Below are positions 23,295 to 30,500 of a DNA stretch of 64,000 nt, one piece after another. How positions within the stretch are numbered: the first letter of the stretch is position 1; every line of letters begins with the position of its first letter. A program made the position numbers and the translations under genes. The notes beneath the pieces were generated by a model. That model searched no databases and was not told the DNA's origin. It saw only the letters and a list, made by a program, of their open reading frames with translations. The DNA comes from Ectothiorhodospira sp. BSL-9. GTDB lineage: Bacteria; Pseudomonadota; Gammaproteobacteria; Ectothiorhodospirales; Ectothiorhodospiraceae. The DNA lies in NCBI RefSeq assembly GCF_001632845.1, contig NZ_CP011994.1:496001-560000 (forward strand), read 5' to 3'.

Positions 23295-24871
23295 ATGTTC
23301 GGTTTCCGAAAAAAGAAAAAGCCCGCAGAGCCCACCCAGGCTCCGAAGCCTTCCGAGGCCCCCAAGCCTTCCGAGGCAGGCGAGAGCTTCGAGGCCCTGG
23401 AGATCATCGAGGCCCCCGAGAGTATCAGGTCTCCCAGACGGGACAAGGCCGGTCCGGGAGCTAAGGATGCGCCCAGGCCGGAGCCGGAGTCCGCGAAGGC
23501 CGCCAAGCCCGAGGCCCAGCCACCCCAGCCCACAAAGGCTGCGGAAACCAGGCCGTCGACCGCGAAGGCCGAAGCCCCATCGTCCTCTGGTGCCTCTCCA
23601 TTCGCGGCCAAGGGCCGCTCCCACACGTCCCCACCCGACACCCCCCGGGAGCAACTCCCGCCCGCGAAGCCGGAACCCAACAAGGCCGCCGCACCCCAGT
23701 CCCAGCCCGCCAAGCCCCCCGAAGCGCCGCGGGAGCAGCCCCCGGCCACGAAGCCGGAGCCCAGCAAGGCCGCCACAGCCCAGGCCCAGCCCGCCCCCCC
23801 CCCGAAGCACGGCGGGAGCAGCCCCCGGCCGCGAAGCCGGAACTCAACAAGACTGCCTCCCCCCAGGCCCAGCCTCCTCAGCCCTCAAAGACCGAGGAAG
23901 CCAAGCCCGCCACCGGGGAAGAAGTCCCCACCAGCAAGTCCGGCCTCTTCTCTCGCCTGCGCAAGGGGCTGTCCAAGACATCCTCCACCCTCACCGAGGG
24001 CATGGCCGGACTGGTCATGGGCAAGAAGGCCATCGACGATGAACTACTGGAGGAACTGGAAACCCGCCTGCTGATGGCCGACGTGGGCATCGAGGCCACC
24101 GAAGAGATCCTGGACAACCTCACCACCCGGGTGGCCCGCAAGGAACTCAAAGATGCCGAGGCCCTGGTCAAGGCCCTTGAAGCCGCCATGGTGGACGTGC
24201 TCGAGCCGGTACAGGCGCCCCTGAAGATCGACCGTGACCACAAGCCCTACGTCATCCTGGTGCTGGGCATCAACGGCTCCGGCAAGACCACCACCATCGG
24301 CAAGCTTACCCACCGCCTGCGGTCCCAGGGCCTGTCGGTGATGCTGGCCGCTGGCGACACCTTCCGTGCCGCCGCCGTGGAACAGCTGCAGACCTGGGGC
24401 GAACGCAATCAGGCCCCGGTGATCTCCCAGGGCAAGGGCGCCGACTCCGCCTCGGTGATCTACGATGGCGTGCAGGCCGCCAAGGCCCGCGGCATGGACG
24501 TGCTCATCGCCGACACCGCCGGTCGGCTGCACACCCAGACCAATCTCATGGACGAACTCAAGAAGGTCAAACGGGTCATCCAGCGCCTGGAACCGGAAGC
24601 CCCCCACGAGATCCTGCTGGTGGTGGACGGCGGCACCGGCCAGAACGCCCTCAACCAGGCCCAGGACTTCGACCTGGCCATGGGTGTGACCGGCATTGCC
24701 GTCACCAAGCTGGACGGCACCGCCAAGGGCGGCATCCTGTTTGCCATGGCCCAGAAGGTGGGCATCCCGGTGCGCTTCATCGGCGTGGGGGAAAGCATCG
24801 AGGATCTGCGCGAGTTCGACGCCAAGGACTTTGCCCGGGCATTGCTGTCGGATGGCGCTCAGAAGGAGTGA
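23295..24871 (+). CDS. ftsY: Signal recognition particle receptor FtsY (frameshifted as read)
   Basis: Membrane-associated SRP receptor GTPase for co-translational targeting. Begins MFGFRKKKKPAEPTQ; an acidic/Pro-Ala-rich A domain with imperfect repeats (REQLPPAKPEP, REQPPATKPEP) follows. The NG domain has LGINGSGKTTTIGKL, AAGDTFRAAAVEQL, DTAGR and TKLDGTAKGG. The first part is in one frame and the NG domain in another. Frames switch at a C10 run (23794-23803); one extra C would restore a single 525-aa protein, and the repeat reads EARREQPPAAKPE after correction. An internal ATG at 24002 could start the NG domain alone. An in-frame palindromic repeat lies at 23575-23624. Followed by ftsE and ftsX. 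Confidence 0.92.
23575..23624 (+). repeat. 50-bp interspersed repeat inside ftsY, copy C
   Basis: Shares 44 of 50 bases with 28760-28809 inside ccoI. Its 3' half is the CATTCGCGGCC palindrome (23599-23624). Read in frame it encodes APSSSGASPFAAKGRSH in the disordered A domain of FtsY. Confidence 0.85.
23794..23803 (+). other. C10 homopolymer at the ftsY frameshift
   Basis: Ten consecutive C bases after a G. Eleven would keep the FtsY A domain and NG domain in one frame. Total length 23295-24871 is 1577 bases, one short of a multiple of three. Confidence 0.9.
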
Positions 24872-24898: not shown

Positions 24899-25573
24899 AT
24901 GATCCACCTGAAGAACGTCACCAAGCGTTATCCCACCGGCCATGAGGCCCTGTCCCGCATCAATCTCAAGCTGGACAAGGGCGCCATGGCCTTTCTCACC
25001 GGCCACTCCGGAGCCGGCAAGAGCACCCTGCTCAAGCTGATCGCCCTGATCGAGCGGCCCACCCGCGGCCGGCTCATCGTCAACGATCAGGACCTGGCCG
25101 ACCTCGCTCCCCGGCAGGTGCCGTACTTCCGTCGCCAGATCGGCATCATTTTCCAGGATCACCACCTGCTGCACGATCGCAGCGTCTTCGACAACGTGGC
25201 CCTGCCGCTGGTGATCCAGGGCTACCGACAGCACGAGATCGCCCGCCGCGCCCGGGCCGCCCTGGACCGGGTTGGCCTGCTGCACAAGGAAGGCGCCGCG
25301 CCCATCACCCTCTCCAGCGGAGAGCAGCAGCGGGTGGGCATCGCCCGGGCCGTGGTGCATAAACCGGCCATCCTGCTGGCCGACGAACCCACCGGCAATC
25401 TGGACCCGGACCTGTCCCGGGAGATCATGGAGCTGTTCATCCGCTTCAACCAGGTGGGCACCACGGTGATGATCGCCAGCCACGACCTGGAACTCATCTC
25501 CAGCCTGGGCAAGCCCATGGTGAGACTGCATGAGGGGCGTTTGCAGCTGCAGCGCCAGCCGGAGCCCGCATGA
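24899..25573 (+). CDS. ftsE: Cell division ATP-binding protein FtsE
   Basis: A 224-aa ABC ATPase that, with FtsX, controls periplasmic amidase activation at the septum. Walker A GHSGAGKST at residues 35-43, Q-loop IIFQDHHLL, signature LSSGEQQRVGIARA and Walker B ILLADEPTGNLDP with the H-loop ASHDLEL. Starts MIHLKNVTKRYP. It lies 27 bp after ftsY and overlaps the ftsX start by 4 bp, the classic ftsYEX order. Confidence 0.97.
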   Translation: MIHLKNVTKRYPTGHEALSRINLKLDKGAMAFLTGHSGAGKSTLLKLIALIERPTRGRLIVNDQDLADLAPRQVPYFRRQIGIIFQDHHLLHDRSVFDNVALPLVIQGYRQHEIARRARAALDRVGLLHKEGAAPITLSSGEQQRVGIARAVVHKPAILLADEPTGNLDPDLSREIMELFIRFNQVGTTVMIASHDLELISSLGKPMVRLHEGRLQLQRQPEPA

Positions 25574-26529
25574 GGTCGCGCCGTCGTCTCAGCCGGCCCA
25601 CCATGCATGCCCGCTTCCAGGCCTACGGCATCAATCATCTGCGGGCCTTGGTGTTCAGCCTGGGCAAGCTCTACCGGGCCCCGTTCTCCAGCCTGCTCAC
25701 CCTGATGGTGATCGCCATTGCGCTCACCCTGCCCAGCATCCTGTATCTCATCCTGGCCAACCTGCAGCAGGTCACCCCCCAGTGGGATCGCAGCGCGCAG
25801 ATCTCCGTGTTCCTGGAGTCATCCGTGGCGGATGAGGACGTCCCGGCCCTGGCCACCCGTCTGGCCCAGCGATCCGACGTGGCCGCCACCGAAGGCATCA
25901 CCCGCGATCAGGCCCTGGAGGAATTCCGCGCCCACTCCGGTTTTGGCGACGCCGTGGATGCCCTGGGGGAGAATCCGCTGCCGGCCGTCATCCTGATCAC
26001 TCCGGCCCTGGACACCCAATCCCCGGCCAATCTGGAAGCCCTGGTGGCATCCCTGAACGAACTGGCCGAGGTGGACAGCGCCAGCCTGGACATGCAGTGG
26101 GTGCAGCGCCTGTACGCCATCATGGAAACCCTGGAACGCACCACCCTCATCCTGGCCCTGCTGCTGGGCCTGGGGGTGATCCTGGTGGTGGGCAACACCA
26201 TCCGTCTGGACATCCAGAGCCGTCGCGAGGAGATCGAGGTAGCCAAACTGGTGGGCGCCACCGACGCCTTCATCCGCCGCCCGTTCCTGTACGGCGGCCT
26301 CTGGCTGGGCCTGGGCGGCGCCCTCACCGCCCTGCTCATCGTTGCCATCACCCGCCTCCTCCTCACCCCCCCGGTCCAGGACCTGGCCGCCCTCTACGGC
26401 GGTCAGTTCGGCATCCGCGGCCTCACCGCCCCCGACACCCTCACCCTCCTCGCCACCGGCGCCATCCTCGGCCTGGCCGGCTCCTGGGTCACCGTAGGCC
26501 GCCACCTCCGCGACATCGAGCCCTCCTGA
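25570..26529 (+). CDS. ftsX: Cell division protein FtsX
   Basis: A 319-aa inner-membrane partner of FtsE. An N-terminal cytoplasmic stretch and a first membrane helix (LLTLMVIAIALTLPSILYLI) precede a large periplasmic domain (about residues 65-180). Three C-terminal helices follow (ILALLLGLGVILVVGNT, GGLWLGLGGALTALLIVA, LTLLATGAILGLAGS). The loop RLDIQSRREEIEVAKLVGAT is highly typical. The start overlaps the ftsE stop by 4 bp. Confidence 0.96.
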   Translation: MRSRRRLSRPTMHARFQAYGINHLRALVFSLGKLYRAPFSSLLTLMVIAIALTLPSILYLILANLQQVTPQWDRSAQISVFLESSVADEDVPALATRLAQRSDVAATEGITRDQALEEFRAHSGFGDAVDALGENPLPAVILITPALDTQSPANLEALVASLNELAEVDSASLDMQWVQRLYAIMETLERTTLILALLLGLGVILVVGNTIRLDIQSRREEIEVAKLVGATDAFIRRPFLYGGLWLGLGGALTALLIVAITRLLLTPPVQDLAALYGGQFGIRGLTAPDTLTLLATGAILGLAGSWVTVGRHLRDIEPS

Positions 26530-26536
26530 AGGGACA

Positions 26537-26607
26537 CAAAAAAGGGGACGGACACCTTTTCTGTGCGCGCCACTGGCGCGCGGAAAAGGTGTCCGTCCCC
26601 TTTTTTG
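26537..26607. repeat. Palindromic element, copy 3 (GGGGACGGACACC variant)
   Basis: A 71-bp inverted repeat just after the ftsX stop. Arms read GGGGACGGACACC instead of GGGGACAGACACC, with the change compensated on the other arm (GGTGTCCGTCCCC). Inner arms GCGCGCC/GGCGCGC surround ACT. A run of six T follows on the plus strand, so it could end ftsYEX transcription. Confidence 0.9.
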
Positions 26608-26628
26608 CGTCAGGAACTCCACTCCCCC

Positions 26629-26658
26629 TTAGCACTCCAACGAGCAGACTGCTAAAAT
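26629..26658 (+). promoter_or_regulatory. CIRCE-like HrcA operator overlapping the rpoH promoter
   Basis: TTAGCACTC (26629-26637), nine bases, then GACTGCTAA (26647-26655). The consensus CIRCE is TTAGCACTC-N9-GAGTGCTAA, so the left arm is perfect and the right arm has one mismatch. It covers a plausible sigma-70 promoter, TTAGCA at 26629-26634 and TAAAAT at 26653-26658 with 18 bp between, so HrcA binding would block RNA polymerase. Confidence 0.75.
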
Positions 26659-26694
26659 CACGACATTCCAGCAGGAATGGGGAGGACGCCAACG

Positions 26695-27552
26695 ATGAAC
26701 ACCGCGCTAGTCGCCACAAAAGACAATCTGGCCGTACCGGTCGGCAACCTGGAAAGCTACATTCAGGCGGTCGGCCAGTTGCACGTTCTGGAGGCCGATG
26801 ACGAGAAGGCCCTGGCCCGTCGCCTGCGCGACCACCAGGACCTGGAGGCTGCGCGTACCCTTGTGATGCACAACCTTCGGTTCGTGGTGCATATCGCGCG
26901 GGGCTATTCCGGTTACGGATTGGGCCTGGGCGATCTGATTCAGGAGGGCAACATCGGCCTCATGAAGGCGGTGAAGCGCTTTGATCCGGAGATGAACGTG
27001 CGCCTGATCTCCTTCGCCGTGCACTGGATCCGGGCCGAGATCCATGAATTCGTGCTGCGCAACTGGCGCATCGTCAAGGTGGCCACCACCAAGGCGCAGC
27101 GCAAGTTGTTCTTCAACCTGCGCAGCGCCAAGCAGCGCCTGGGCTGGTTCAATCAGAGTGAAGTGGAAACCGTGGCCCGGGACCTGGGCGTCACCCCCCG
27201 CGAGGTCATGGAGATGGAATCGCGCATGGCCGGCCAGGACATGAGCTTCGACCCGGAACCCCGGGACGAAGACACCCCCTACCTGCCCCCTTCGGAGTCC
27301 CTGACCGACCAGACCGACGATCCGGCCCAGGCTTTGGAACGCAGCGACTGGGACAGCTACCACCACACCCGCCTGCAGCAGGCCATGGAGGCCCTGGACG
27401 ACCGCAGCCGCCAGATCCTGGCCCGCCGCTGGCTGGCCGAAGACAAGGCCACCCTGCACGAACTGGCCGCCGAATACAGCGTATCCGCCGAACGCATCCG
27501 GCAGCTGGAAAACAACGCCATCGGCAAGCTACGCAAGGCGATGGCCGCGTAA
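26695..27552 (+). CDS. rpoH: RNA polymerase heat-shock sigma factor sigma-32
   Basis: A 285-aa sigma-70-family factor for heat-shock genes. Region 2 reads [41 protein letters not shown] and the -10 recognition helix [23 protein letters not shown]. The RpoH box [15 protein letters not shown], which sets it apart from other sigma factors, is intact. Region 4 ends in a helix-turn-helix ([20 protein letters not shown]). The start is the ATG at 26695 after GGGGAGGA; an ATG at 26677 overlaps that site. It is downstream of ftsYEX but has its own CIRCE-controlled promoter. Confidence 0.96.
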
Positions 27553-27558
27553 AGGCAC

Positions 27559-27655
27559 AAAAAGGGGAGCAAAAAGGGGACAGACACCTTTTCCAGGCGC
27601 GCCATCGGCGCGCGGAAAAGGTGTCTGTCCCCTTTTTGCTGTCCCCTTTTTGCTC
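27559..27655. repeat. Extended palindromic element, copy 4
   Basis: The usual element (inner arms GCGCGCC/GGCGCGC around ATC) carries an extra outer repeat on both sides: AAAAAGGGGAGC before it and GCTGTCCCCTTTTTGCTCC after it. It lies between rpoH and the convergent small ORF at the end of the cco locus. Confidence 0.88.
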
Positions 27656-27811
27656 CTATCCCAGCAGGATCACCGAGAAAAAGCTGAGCCAGGCCAGGAT
27701 GACCAGGGCTACCACAAAGGTCATGGCGCCGTTCTCGAAACTGAACATGGGGTGCCGGAGCACCGGTAGTCGGCGAACCGCCGCGATCCACTCATTCAAC
27801 CTGTCGATCAT
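27656..27811 (-). CDS. 51-aa single-span membrane protein coupled to ccoS
   Basis: A small frame starting MIDRLNEWIAAVRRLPVL and ending in a hydrophobic helix (MTFVVALVILAWLSFFSVILLG). Its ATG overlaps the ccoS stop (TGATG), and GAGGAGG lies about seven bases upstream, so it looks translated as the last gene of the cco operon. The N-terminus is amphipathic and basic; the protein ends within the helix. I do not recognise the family. Small single-helix subunits (for example CcoM) occur in some cbb3 oxidases, which makes an oxidase role possible but unproven. Confidence 0.6.
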   Translation of the reverse strand: MIDRLNEWIAAVRRLPVLRHPMFSFENGAMTFVVALVILAWLSFFSVILLG

Positions 27812-28008
27812 CACCTGTCCTCCTCGTGCTGTTCTCGCGATGCCGGATCCCGACGCGGGATCCTGGGATCATCGTCATCCATGAGGATCCGGTGGGCCGG
27901 ACCCTCCATGTCGTCGTACTGCCCGGCGCGCACCGTCCACAGGAAGGCTGCCAGGATCACTGCCATGAAGATGATCCCCAAGGGGATCAGCAGATACAGA
28001 ATGTTCAT
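27811..28008 (-). CDS. ccoS: cbb3 oxidase assembly protein CcoS
   Basis: A 65-aa protein with one N-terminal membrane helix (ILYLLIPLGIIFMAVILAAFLW) and the characteristic GQYDDMEGPAHRIL segment with an acidic tail. It is needed for cofactor insertion into cbb3 oxidase. The start overlaps the ccoI stop by 4 bp and its stop overlaps the 51-codon ORF. Confidence 0.93.
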   Translation of the reverse strand: MNILYLLIPLGIIFMAVILAAFLWTVRAGQYDDMEGPAHRILMDDDDPRIPRRDPASREQHEEDR

Positions 28009-30500
28009 GTGCCGTCACTCCCGCCCGTCAGGCCCTGGTCACGCAACCGCAGGGCATTCACCACCACCAGCAGCGAACTCAGGGACATCCCCAGCGCCGC
28101 AATCCAGGGGGTGATCAGCCCCACCGCTGCCACGGGCAATGCAATGGAATTGTAGCCAATGGCCCAGCCGATGTTCTGGCGGATCACCCTGCTCGTCTCC
28201 CGGGCCTTGTCCAGGCCCGCCGGCAGGACCGCCAGCTGATCCCGGTAGAGGATCATGTCGGCACTGGCCTGTGCCAGCTGCGTGCCCCCGGCCATAGCCA
28301 CCGATACCGTGGCCCGGGAGAGCACCGGCGCGTCATTGACCCCGTCACCCACCATGGCCACACGGGCACCCTCCGCCTCCAGGGCCTCCAGCGCTTCCAG
28401 CTTGTCGGCGGGCGTGAGCCCCCCCCGAGCATCGTCGATACCCAGTTCCCGGGCCAGACGTCTCACGGTAACCGGGTCATCACCCGAGAAGACATGCAGA
28501 TTCAGGCCGCGTTCCTTCAGGGCCTGCACGGTGAACAAGGCATCCGGGCGCAGCCGGTCCTCCAGGGTGAACAGGGCCAGGGGGCCGGACTCGTCACCCA
28601 GGGCGATGACGGTGCCGTGGTGGGCGTGTTGGCGGGCCATGTCAAGAAGGTGGCCCCCTGCCTCGCCGCTGACCAGTTCGGCCACAAAGCGGGGACTGCC
28701 AAGGCGGACCCGTCTGCCATGGACCCAGCCCTCCACACCCAGACCCGGGAACGTCCGGGGCCCATCATCCTCCGGTGCCTCCCCCTTCGCGGCCAGGGGC
28801 CGCTCCCACGCACGTTCGCCTTCCGCCGCTTCCACCAACGCCCGCGCCACCGGATGTCCCGACCCCACCTCCAGCGCCGCCGCCATTTGCACACAACCGC
28901 TGCGATCCAACGACCCCAGCACCTCCACATCCCGAACACTCAGCCGCCCCTCGGTCAGGGTGCCCGTCTTGTCGAACACCATGTCGGTCACACTGGCCAG
29001 CCCCTCCAGGGCCTCACCCCGGGCCGTCAGCAACCCCCGACCAGTCAACGCCCCTGTCGCCGCCGTGATCGCTGCCGGCGTGGCCAGGGCCAGGGCGCAG
29101 GGGCAGCTCACCACCAGCATGGCCACCATCACCCAGAAGGCCCGGGCCGGGTCGATCCACCACCACCACACCAGGCCCACCAGGGCCGTCAGCACCAGCA
29201 CCGTCCCCACGAACCAGCCCGTGCCCCGCTCGGCCATCACCGCCAGGCGGGGCTTCTGGGTCTGGGCGCGGTCCAGCAGGCGCTGGATGGCCGAGAGCAC
29301 CGTGTCGGCGCCCACCTGCTCCACCCGCATCACCAGTGGGCTTTCCACATTCACCGTGCCCCCGGTCAACCCATCACCCCTGCCCCGCGCCCGGGGCAGG
29401 CTCTCCCCCGTCAGCAGGGATTCATCCACGCTGGAACGCCCGGACTCCACCACCCCATCGGCGGGCACCGGCTCCCCGGGGCGTATGCGCACCCGATCCC
29501 CCGGAGAGAGCTCCGTCACCGGCACCTGCTCCTCGCCCGTGTCGGTCAGGCGCGTGGCCACCGCCGGCAACAACCGCCCCAGGGCCTCCGTGGCCTGACC
29601 GGCCCGCTGGCGCGCCGCCATCTCCAGGTAACGCCCGGTGAGCAGGAAGAAGACAAACATGGTCACCGACTCGAAATACACATGCTCATGGCTGCCGGTG
29701 ACCGTGGCCCACACACTGGCCAGATAGGTGGAACCGATGGCCAGGGCCACCGGCACATCCATCCCCAAGCGACGCTGGCGCACATCCCGCCAGGCCGAGG
29801 TGAAGAAGCCGGCGCCGGCATACACCACCACCGGCGTGGCAATGAACAGGGCCACCCAGCGCAGGAAGTGCATCATGTCTTCCTGACCCGCCGCGCCATG
29901 CCCCAGCCACAGGGCCACGGCGATCATCATCACCTGCATCATGCCCAGCCCCGCCACCGCCAGGCGCCTCAGGGCCCGGTCCCGCTCCCGCTTGAACGAG
30001 GCCTCCTGACGCCCCGGGTCAAAGGGATGGGCCCGGTAACCGATCTCATGGACGGCCTGAAGGATTCGGCTAAGCTGAACCCGGCTGGTGTCCCAGCGCA
30101 CCCGCGCCCGATGCGTGGAATAGTTCACCGAGAAGTCCAGCACCCCGGGCAGGGCCTTCACGTGGCGCTCGCTCAACCACACACAGGCGGCACAGGTAAT
30201 GCCCTCCAGCATCAGCGAGGCTTCGCGCACATCTCCCTCGGCCACATGCACAAAGCTGCGCTGCACCTGCTCGGTGTCGTAAAGATCCAGACCGGCCAGG
30301 GGCGCCAGCGGGTCCGGCGGGCCGTCGGGGGTCTCGGTGCGATGCCGGTAATAATCCTCCAGACCGGCCTCGACGATGGCCCCGGCCACCGCCAGGCAAC
30401 CCGGACAACAAAAGGCCCGCTCCTCCCCCAGCACCACCCGACGAAATGCGCTGCCCCGGGGGACCGGCAGGCCGCAGTGGTAACAAGCTTCCCGGGTCAC
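28005..30500 (-). CDS. ccoI: Copper-translocating P1B-type ATPase for cbb3 oxidase assembly
   Basis: An 831-aa inner-membrane Cu(I) ATPase of the CcoI/FixI type that supplies copper for CuB. The N-terminal Cys cluster (CYHCGLP, FCCPGC) is typical of FixI. A heavy-metal domain has GITCAACVW, the ion-channel motif is CPCALALATPAA, the phosphorylation site DKTGTLT and the hinge GDGVNDAP. In the nucleotide-binding domain, near residues 564-581, a segment WERPLAAKGEAPEDDG is encoded by a palindromic repeat and is absent from family members as I know them. Overlaps ccoH and ccoS by 4 bp each. Confidence 0.93.
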   Translation of the reverse strand: MTREACYHCGLPVPRGSAFRRVVLGEERAFCCPGCLAVAGAIVEAGLEDYYRHRTETPDGPPDPLAPLAGLDLYDTEQVQRSFVHVAEGDVREASLMLEGITCAACVWLSERHVKALPGVLDFSVNYSTHRARVRWDTSRVQLSRILQAVHEIGYRAHPFDPGRQEASFKRERDRALRRLAVAGLGMMQVMMIAVALWLGHGAAGQEDMMHFLRWVALFIATPVVVYAGAGFFTSAWRDVRQRRLGMDVPVALAIGSTYLASVWATVTGSHEHVYFESVTMFVFFLLTGRYLEMAARQRAGQATEALGRLLPAVATRLTDTGEEQVPVTELSPGDRVRIRPGEPVPADGVVESGRSSVDESLLTGESLPRARGRGDGLTGGTVNVESPLVMRVEQVGADTVLSAIQRLLDRAQTQKPRLAVMAERGTGWFVGTVLVLTALVGLVWWWWIDPARAFWVMVAMLVVSCPCALALATPAAITAATGALTGRGLLTARGEALEGLASVTDMVFDKTGTLTEGRLSVRDVEVLGSLDRSGCVQMAAALEVGSGHPVARALVEAAEGERAWERPLAAKGEAPEDDGPRTFPGLGVEGWVHGRRVRLGSPRFVAELVSGEAGGHLLDMARQHAHHGTVIALGDESGPLALFTLEDRLRPDALFTVQALKERGLNLHVFSGDDPVTVRRLARELGIDDARGGLTPADKLEALEALEAEGARVAMVGDGVNDAPVLSRATVSVAMAGGTQLAQASADMILYRDQLAVLPAGLDKARETSRVIRQNIGWAIGYNSIALPVAAVGLITPWIAALGMSLSSLLVVVNALRLRDQGLTGGSDGT
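28760..28809 (+). repeat. 50-bp interspersed repeat inside ccoI, copy D
   Basis: 44 of 50 bases match the ftsY copy at 23575-23624, but the host gene reads it from the other strand. It encodes WERPLAAKGEAPEDDG in an N-domain loop of the copper ATPase. The 26-bp palindromic core is 28784-28809. Confidence 0.85.

Follow-up and report, generated by a model that had tools for sequence, protein, structure and literature searches.

Textbook control of rpoH comes from Escherichia coli, which lacks HrcA. In Ectothiorhodospira sp. BSL-9, a sequence resembling CIRCE, the HrcA operator, lies directly before rpoH, and an earlier note had proposed that it places this heat-shock sigma factor gene under HrcA repression. 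The question raised by this locus is whether the site is a real HrcA operator and, if so, which promoters of rpoH it would control. We analyzed it in the 64-kb stretch of DNA that holds the gene (the window), in the whole genome, and across related genomes.

The predicted operator, TTAGCACTC-CAACGAGCA-GACTGCTAA, occupies positions 26629..26655 (no strand assigned). Compared with CIRCE (TTAGCACTC-N9-GAGTGCTAA), one of the 18 arm bases is off, a G-to-C change at base 3 of the right arm (26649), in agreement with the one-base departure described earlier. With up to three mismatches allowed, the rpoH site is the single match in the window, where 0.01 would be expected. It ends 39 bases before the rpoH ATG and runs into a sigma70-like extended -10, TGCTAAAAT; when the site is taken to end at 26658, it comprises the operator plus AAT, which completes the sigma70-like promoter. 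Its position at the promoter of a heat-shock gene, rpoH, is that of a CIRCE element. The gene itself (26695..27552, + strand) encodes a sigma32 of 285 aa (TIGR02392, 404.5 bits for a cut-off of 323.1) and closes the order ftsY-ftsE-ftsX-rpoH, all in one direction (ftsY, 24002-24871; ftsE, 24899-25573; ftsX, 25570-26529). Counted from the putative sigma70-like start, the 5′ untranslated region would be short, about 30 nt (26665..26694, + strand), with a Shine-Dalgarno sequence, GGGAGG, at 26680-26685 and the ATG at 26695.

The BSL-9 genome (3.55 Mb, a single contig) was searched for the repressor and for other operators. The gene whose absence the earlier note had named as decisive against its proposal, hrcA, is present in one copy (PF01628, 229.7 bits; 352 aa if read from ATG), upstream of grpE and dnaK. 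At three mismatches or fewer, CIRCE occurs at three sites genome-wide, at hrcA, groES, and rpoH, while a control pattern gave none. The further sites that had been suggested for checking were thus found at groES and just before hrcA, the first gene of hrcA-grpE-dnaK, and both are classical HrcA targets. The groES promoter reads TTGACA-N16-TATCAT, with the operator beginning at the last base of the -10; that of hrcA reads TTGACA-N16-TAACAT, with the operator beginning a few bases past the -10.

At rpoH, CIRCE is present in 10/10 genomes of the genus. The genus alignment is invariant at 9/9 left-arm bases, 7/9 right-arm bases, one A of an upstream GGAAC block, and the ATG; the right arm contains GACTGC in five genomes and GAGTGC in four, and G007 differs at another base. 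In a survey of the class (143 genomes, nearly one per family), CIRCE followed by the -10 tail (at most one mismatch) was found in 71/143 genomes and the control in 0/143. An ordinary promoter could resemble CIRCE by chance, as the mismatch taken alone would suggest, but we regard this as practically negligible: the expectation in the window is very low, the controls are empty in the genome as in the class, and conservation throughout the genus refutes it.

To relate the site to its repressor, we used the class genomes with an rpoH gene (131/143 at E 1e-60; the other 12 have none at this threshold) and those with hrcA (101/143). The DNA upstream of rpoH was examined in 130 of them, G122 being left out for its partial rpoH, and a site was counted at three mismatches or fewer. 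It was found in 86/92 hrcA-bearing genomes vs 9/38 without detected hrcA (Fisher 2e-15, kinship ignored). For genomes at least 90% complete, with G183 corrected, the figures are 79/85 and 4/30. A second model recovered partial hrcA genes in G183 and G065 and a divergent one in G037; the count tables are given as first computed, and G183 and L060 (G065) were treated as hrcA-present in trees. A set of 80 named public loci, which may share species with the class set, gave the site in 39/46 loci with hrcA and 3/32 without (78 usable; L064 and L078, with too little DNA ahead of the gene, were not counted). The site is found there in many beta-proteobacteria and in one Geobacteraceae genome, and the set's enteric, Vibrio, and Shewanella loci have neither hrcA nor the site.

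On the RpoH tree, from which G148 was left out, hrcA changes at least 22 times. The whole best tree, many of whose branches are weak, gave 22 independent pairs, with a median of 14 concordant and 0 opposite; its supported branches gave 4 independent pairs only, which is not significant. Exceptions run both ways. Four genomes at least 97% complete (G105, G164, G216, and G223) carry the site with no hrcA found by two models, and 6/92 hrcA-bearing class genomes lack the site, although two of the six, G126 and G201, retain a right arm and the -10 within it. The link between HrcA and rpoH put forward earlier thus appears supported by the presence of hrcA, by the classical sites, and by a co-occurrence in the class that has exceptions in both directions.

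Several loci seen during these searches are worth recording. Pseudoalteromonas luteoviolacea (L032 and L279) has a divergent HrcA beside grpE, 25% identical to BSL-9 HrcA and, at 117.5 bits, under the TIGR00331 cut-off, together with an rpoH carrying a perfect CIRCE. No hrcA was found for the Idiomarina, Glaciecola, Colwellia, and Shewanella loci of the named set. G121 has two rpoH copies (L188 and L195), one with CIRCE and one without; the second copy, which has no site, stands outside the 130-genome counts.

The arms of the operator also read as promoter elements. The left arm forms a sigma70-like -35, TTAGCA (26629..26634, + strand, 4/6), and the first six bases of the extended -10, TGCTAAAAT (26650..26658, + strand), belong to the right arm. 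Together, TTAGCA-N18-TAAAAT with TG before the -10 scores 9/12, and one such match was found in 26000-28200, where 0.3 would be expected, in line with the claim that the site spans the predicted rpoH -35 to -10. As a comparison, we used groES sites, taken from 30 loci of the 139 genomes with groES, 28 of which have a site. Base 6 of TAANNT, the third base past the right arm, is T in 85/95 class rpoH sites vs 3/28 groES sites (Fisher 5e-15), and TGNTAANNT is complete in 76/95 rpoH sites. An embedded TTGACA-N18-TATAAT scoring at least 9/12 is present in 50/95 rpoH sites vs 1/28 groES sites. Moreover, A3-to-G, which turns TTAGCA into TTGGCA, a better -35, occurs in 26/95 left arms, and the mirror change, which would spoil TAANNT, in 2/95 right arms. 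Most of the 28 groES sites show the classical layout by eye, although their automatic promoter scores ranged unevenly from 3 to 11 of 12, the scored DNA having ended at the operator. Read in this way, the operator at rpoH coincides with the predicted promoter, its right arm being the -10, whereas at groES it lies downstream of the -10.

Two other promoter types were considered at rpoH. For the left-arm sequence TTGGCAC, a sigma54 promoter was rejected by eye, and the best match to a sigma32 promoter (9/13) falls inside a repeat hairpin and is unconvincing.

Another possibility is that the G-to-C change has broken HrcA binding, leaving the promoter alone under conservation. The changes are indeed unevenly placed: base 3 of the right arm is altered in 10/95 class rpoH sites, its left partner in 1/95, and the same right-arm base of groES sites in 0/28, and the hrcA-bearing G126 and G201 keep only the right arm. 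We nevertheless consider such decay quite improbable, since the other 17 arm bases are intact in BSL-9 and the nine left-arm bases do not vary in the genus. Of the bases kept, A3 and G4 depart from the sigma70 -35 consensus and C7 is part of neither promoter motif; among class genomes that have hrcA, G4 is conserved in 86/86 and C7 in 85/86. In three further families (G214, G219, and G228), the arms are perfect except for this one change. The altered right half-site may tune the affinity of HrcA.

The same change recurs at rpoH in G001, G004, G005, G006, and other families. A possible tie between this variant and the other operators of the same genome was sought in 13 genomes and led to no conclusion, as 8 had additional CIRCE-like sites, most of which retain the G, and 5 had one match only; the groES site of G226 has the change in its left arm. 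In L041 (Lysobacteraceae), L028 (Luteimonas), L008 (Xanthomonas pisi), and G101, the rpoH operator shifts to TTAGCAGTC-N9-GACTGCTAA or decays, and the specificity of HrcA may have changed to match.

A second promoter, absent from the earlier note, appears to share operator bases. A candidate sigmaE(ECF02)-type -35, GGAACTC (26613..26619, + strand, 6/7 to GGAACTT), starts 16 bases before the operator and is followed, after N16, by a candidate -10, TCCAA (26636..26640, + strand, matching TCNNA), made of the last two left-arm bases and the first three spacer bases. In the class, a GGAACTT-like element (at least 6/7) lies within 40 nt upstream of 55/95 rpoH sites, for a shuffled mean of 5.3 and maximum of 11, and in most cases it starts 16 (or 17) bases ahead of the operator. 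With 5/7 or better accepted, it is found at -17 to -15 in 61/95 class, 25/42 named, and 2/28 groES sites, and other offsets average less than one site each. The spacer bases behave similarly, with T at position 10 in 64/95 rpoH vs 3/28 groES sites and A at position 12 in 68/95 vs 6/28. A12, which completes TCNNA, covaries with the -35, being present in 56/61 sites with the fused -35 vs 12/34 without it (Fisher 9e-9). We read the GGAACTT-like element and CIRCE positions 8-12 (TCTAA, TCTCA, TCCAA, etc.) as the putative -35 and -10 of a sigmaE (ECF02) promoter with an N16 spacing.

The fused sigmaE -35 is missing in 34/95 class and 17/42 named sites. Ten of these 34 class sites have a GGAACTT-like element (at least 6/7) elsewhere within 60 nt, followed by TCNNA at N15-17 in 10/10 cases and lying upstream of the operator in 8/10. 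A sigmaE-like promoter upstream of rpoH (at least 6/7, N15-17, TCNNA) was found in 46/86 class genomes with hrcA and the site, 7/9 with the site but no detected hrcA, 2/7 rows with hrcA only (including the second G121 rpoH), and 3/29 with neither; shuffled upstream regions gave 3/131. From the 34 named loci without detected hrcA, 25 were drawn, of which 15 carry GGAACTT (at least 6/7)-N15-17-TCNNA upstream of rpoH, and 11 of these 15 are enteric. Kluyvera and Lelliottia, for example, have GGAACTT-N16-TCTGA. The sigmaE promoter rpoHP3 of E. coli has this geometry.

It could be argued that the HrcA operator covers a sigma70 promoter only and that the GGAACTT-like element serves another factor or is a remnant. 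The sigmaE elements of the window are imperfect (GGAACTC for the -35, and TCCAA vs TCTGA for the -10), and both the 34 class sites without a -35 at the fused place and the low count among class genomes with neither hrcA nor the site point the same way. We find this explanation unlikely, however, in view of the fixed offset of the element in two sets and its rarity at groES, of the covariation of -35 and -10, and of the rpoHP3-like element in 15/25 named loci without detected hrcA, 11 of these 15 being enteric.

From these comparisons, we consider it quite probable that an HrcA operator is merged here with both a sigma70-type and a sigmaE-type promoter of rpoH, such that HrcA would shut both. 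What we observed is the presence, position, and genome context of the site, its co-occurrence with hrcA, the bases common to the operator and the two promoter motifs, and the covariation of the sigmaE -35 and -10; we infer that HrcA binds, that the two promoters are used, and that binding keeps out the two polymerases. The altered right half-site and the poor match (4/6) of the -35 formed by the left arm were counted against this fusion.

Active HrcA bound at 26629-26655 would cover the sigma70-type promoter, whose -35-like element is the left arm and whose extended -10 lies in the right arm, and would also mask the sigmaE-type -10, keeping rpoH transcription low. The activity of HrcA depends on GroE, and GroEL stabilizes the repressor. 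Upon heat or misfolding of cytoplasmic proteins, HrcA would become inactive and rpoH would be freed together with groESL and hrcA-grpE-dnaK, to be transcribed by RNA polymerase with sigma70 or, under envelope stress, with sigmaE. The level of RpoH in E. coli is set mainly by proteolysis and translation; the level here may likewise depend mainly on these, a further point against the fusion.

A broader reading, towards which we lean slightly, is that many hrcA-bearing gamma- and beta-proteobacteria start rpoH from an element of about 46 bases with three inputs, probably ancestral, from which the enterics would have lost HrcA and the operator while keeping rpoHP3. In this element, the left arm and spacer would provide the sigmaE -10 and the right arm the sigma70 extended -10, and a single repressor, informed on cytoplasmic folding, would gate the housekeeping and envelope-stress inputs to rpoH. 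Confidence in this reading was lowered because the sigmaE-like promoter is found in just 3/29 class genomes with neither hrcA nor the site; as judged from these genomes, it is not kept in general.

A link between HrcA and rpoH is not new in kind, because CIRCE upstream of rpoH was predicted in Geobacter sulfurreducens in 2004 (PMC545781, Table 8). There, the same operator stands at the same gene, with other sites at hrcA-grpE-dnaK-dnaJ and groESL, but the organism is a delta-proteobacterium and the site, at -51, is perfect; neither a promoter architecture nor a sigmaE element is described in the part of that paper dealing with these sites (PMC545781). The classical HrcA/CIRCE system of the groESL and hrcA operons has the same repressor and operator, and both targets exist in BSL-9. 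It differs in that its operator follows the -10 and, at groES and hrcA, would lie over the transcript start, whereas at BSL-9 rpoH the operator coincides with the predicted promoter and repression would act by occlusion. HrcA sites at rpoH may also, reportedly, be listed by Permina and Gelfand in 2003.

For the sigmaE side, the nearest relatives are the sigmaE-dependent rpoH promoters of E. coli (rpoH P3) and Bordetella bronchiseptica (fam); the former is named, and in vitro transcription from the DNA upstream of rpoH (fam) by B. bronchiseptica SigE is reported, in PMC3490749. A GGAACTT-like element, N15-17, and TCNNA lie upstream of rpoH as they do here, and such an element was seen in 15/25 named loci without detected hrcA. 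There it stands alone, whereas the BSL-9 -10 is embedded in CIRCE. In the Bordetella parapertussis genome (L071), CIRCE is present at rpoH and the fused -35 is missing; the Bordetella SigE result therefore says nothing about the fused form. Among the literature matches listed (titles and abstract openings, with subscription journals mostly outside), none dealt with the merging of this operator and a sigmaE promoter at rpoH, and we therefore take the architecture of operator and sigmaE promoter as the new part.

If the fusion acts as proposed, gamma-proteobacteria with hrcA would normally have rpoH under HrcA repression (86/92 surveyed), and in most of them the operator at rpoH would also gate sigmaE. 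This would place the two classical heat-shock systems in series, and envelope stress could raise sigma32 only if the cytoplasmic folding state permits. In many gamma- and beta-proteobacteria, one short stretch of DNA could in this way connect three stress circuits, and the fused site suggests, in concrete terms, where the E. coli arrangement could have come from.

The DNA around the gene was also examined for RNA elements. An Rfam search of 26400-27700 found no RNA thermometer family; its matches all fell below gathering scores, and these sub-threshold matches were mostly microRNA models on palindromic repeats. The first 96 nt (26665-26760) fold no better than shuffles (z 0.77). Both tests are weak, and the E. 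coli rpoH RNA thermometer is longer than the 96-nt stretch folded here. No similar plasmid record was found.

Between ftsX and the rpoH promoter lies a terminator-like hairpin with a T-run (26549..26595, + strand), which is a copy of a genome-wide palindromic repeat. The repeat consists of AAAAGGTGTCYGTCCCCTTTT arms enclosing a loop; one copy lies on either side of rpoH (26540-26604 and 27572-27636), where it may act as a terminator after ftsX and after rpoH. The repeat occurs at seven other places in the window (16 arms at two mismatches or fewer), and its cores gave 43 + 39 matches genome-wide (at most one mismatch) for 0 in the control.

Finally, a doubled arrangement was seen in one class genome (G099:C61:202564-202625), where two adjacent CIRCE-like sites precede rpoH and the upstream one also carries an AAAT tail.
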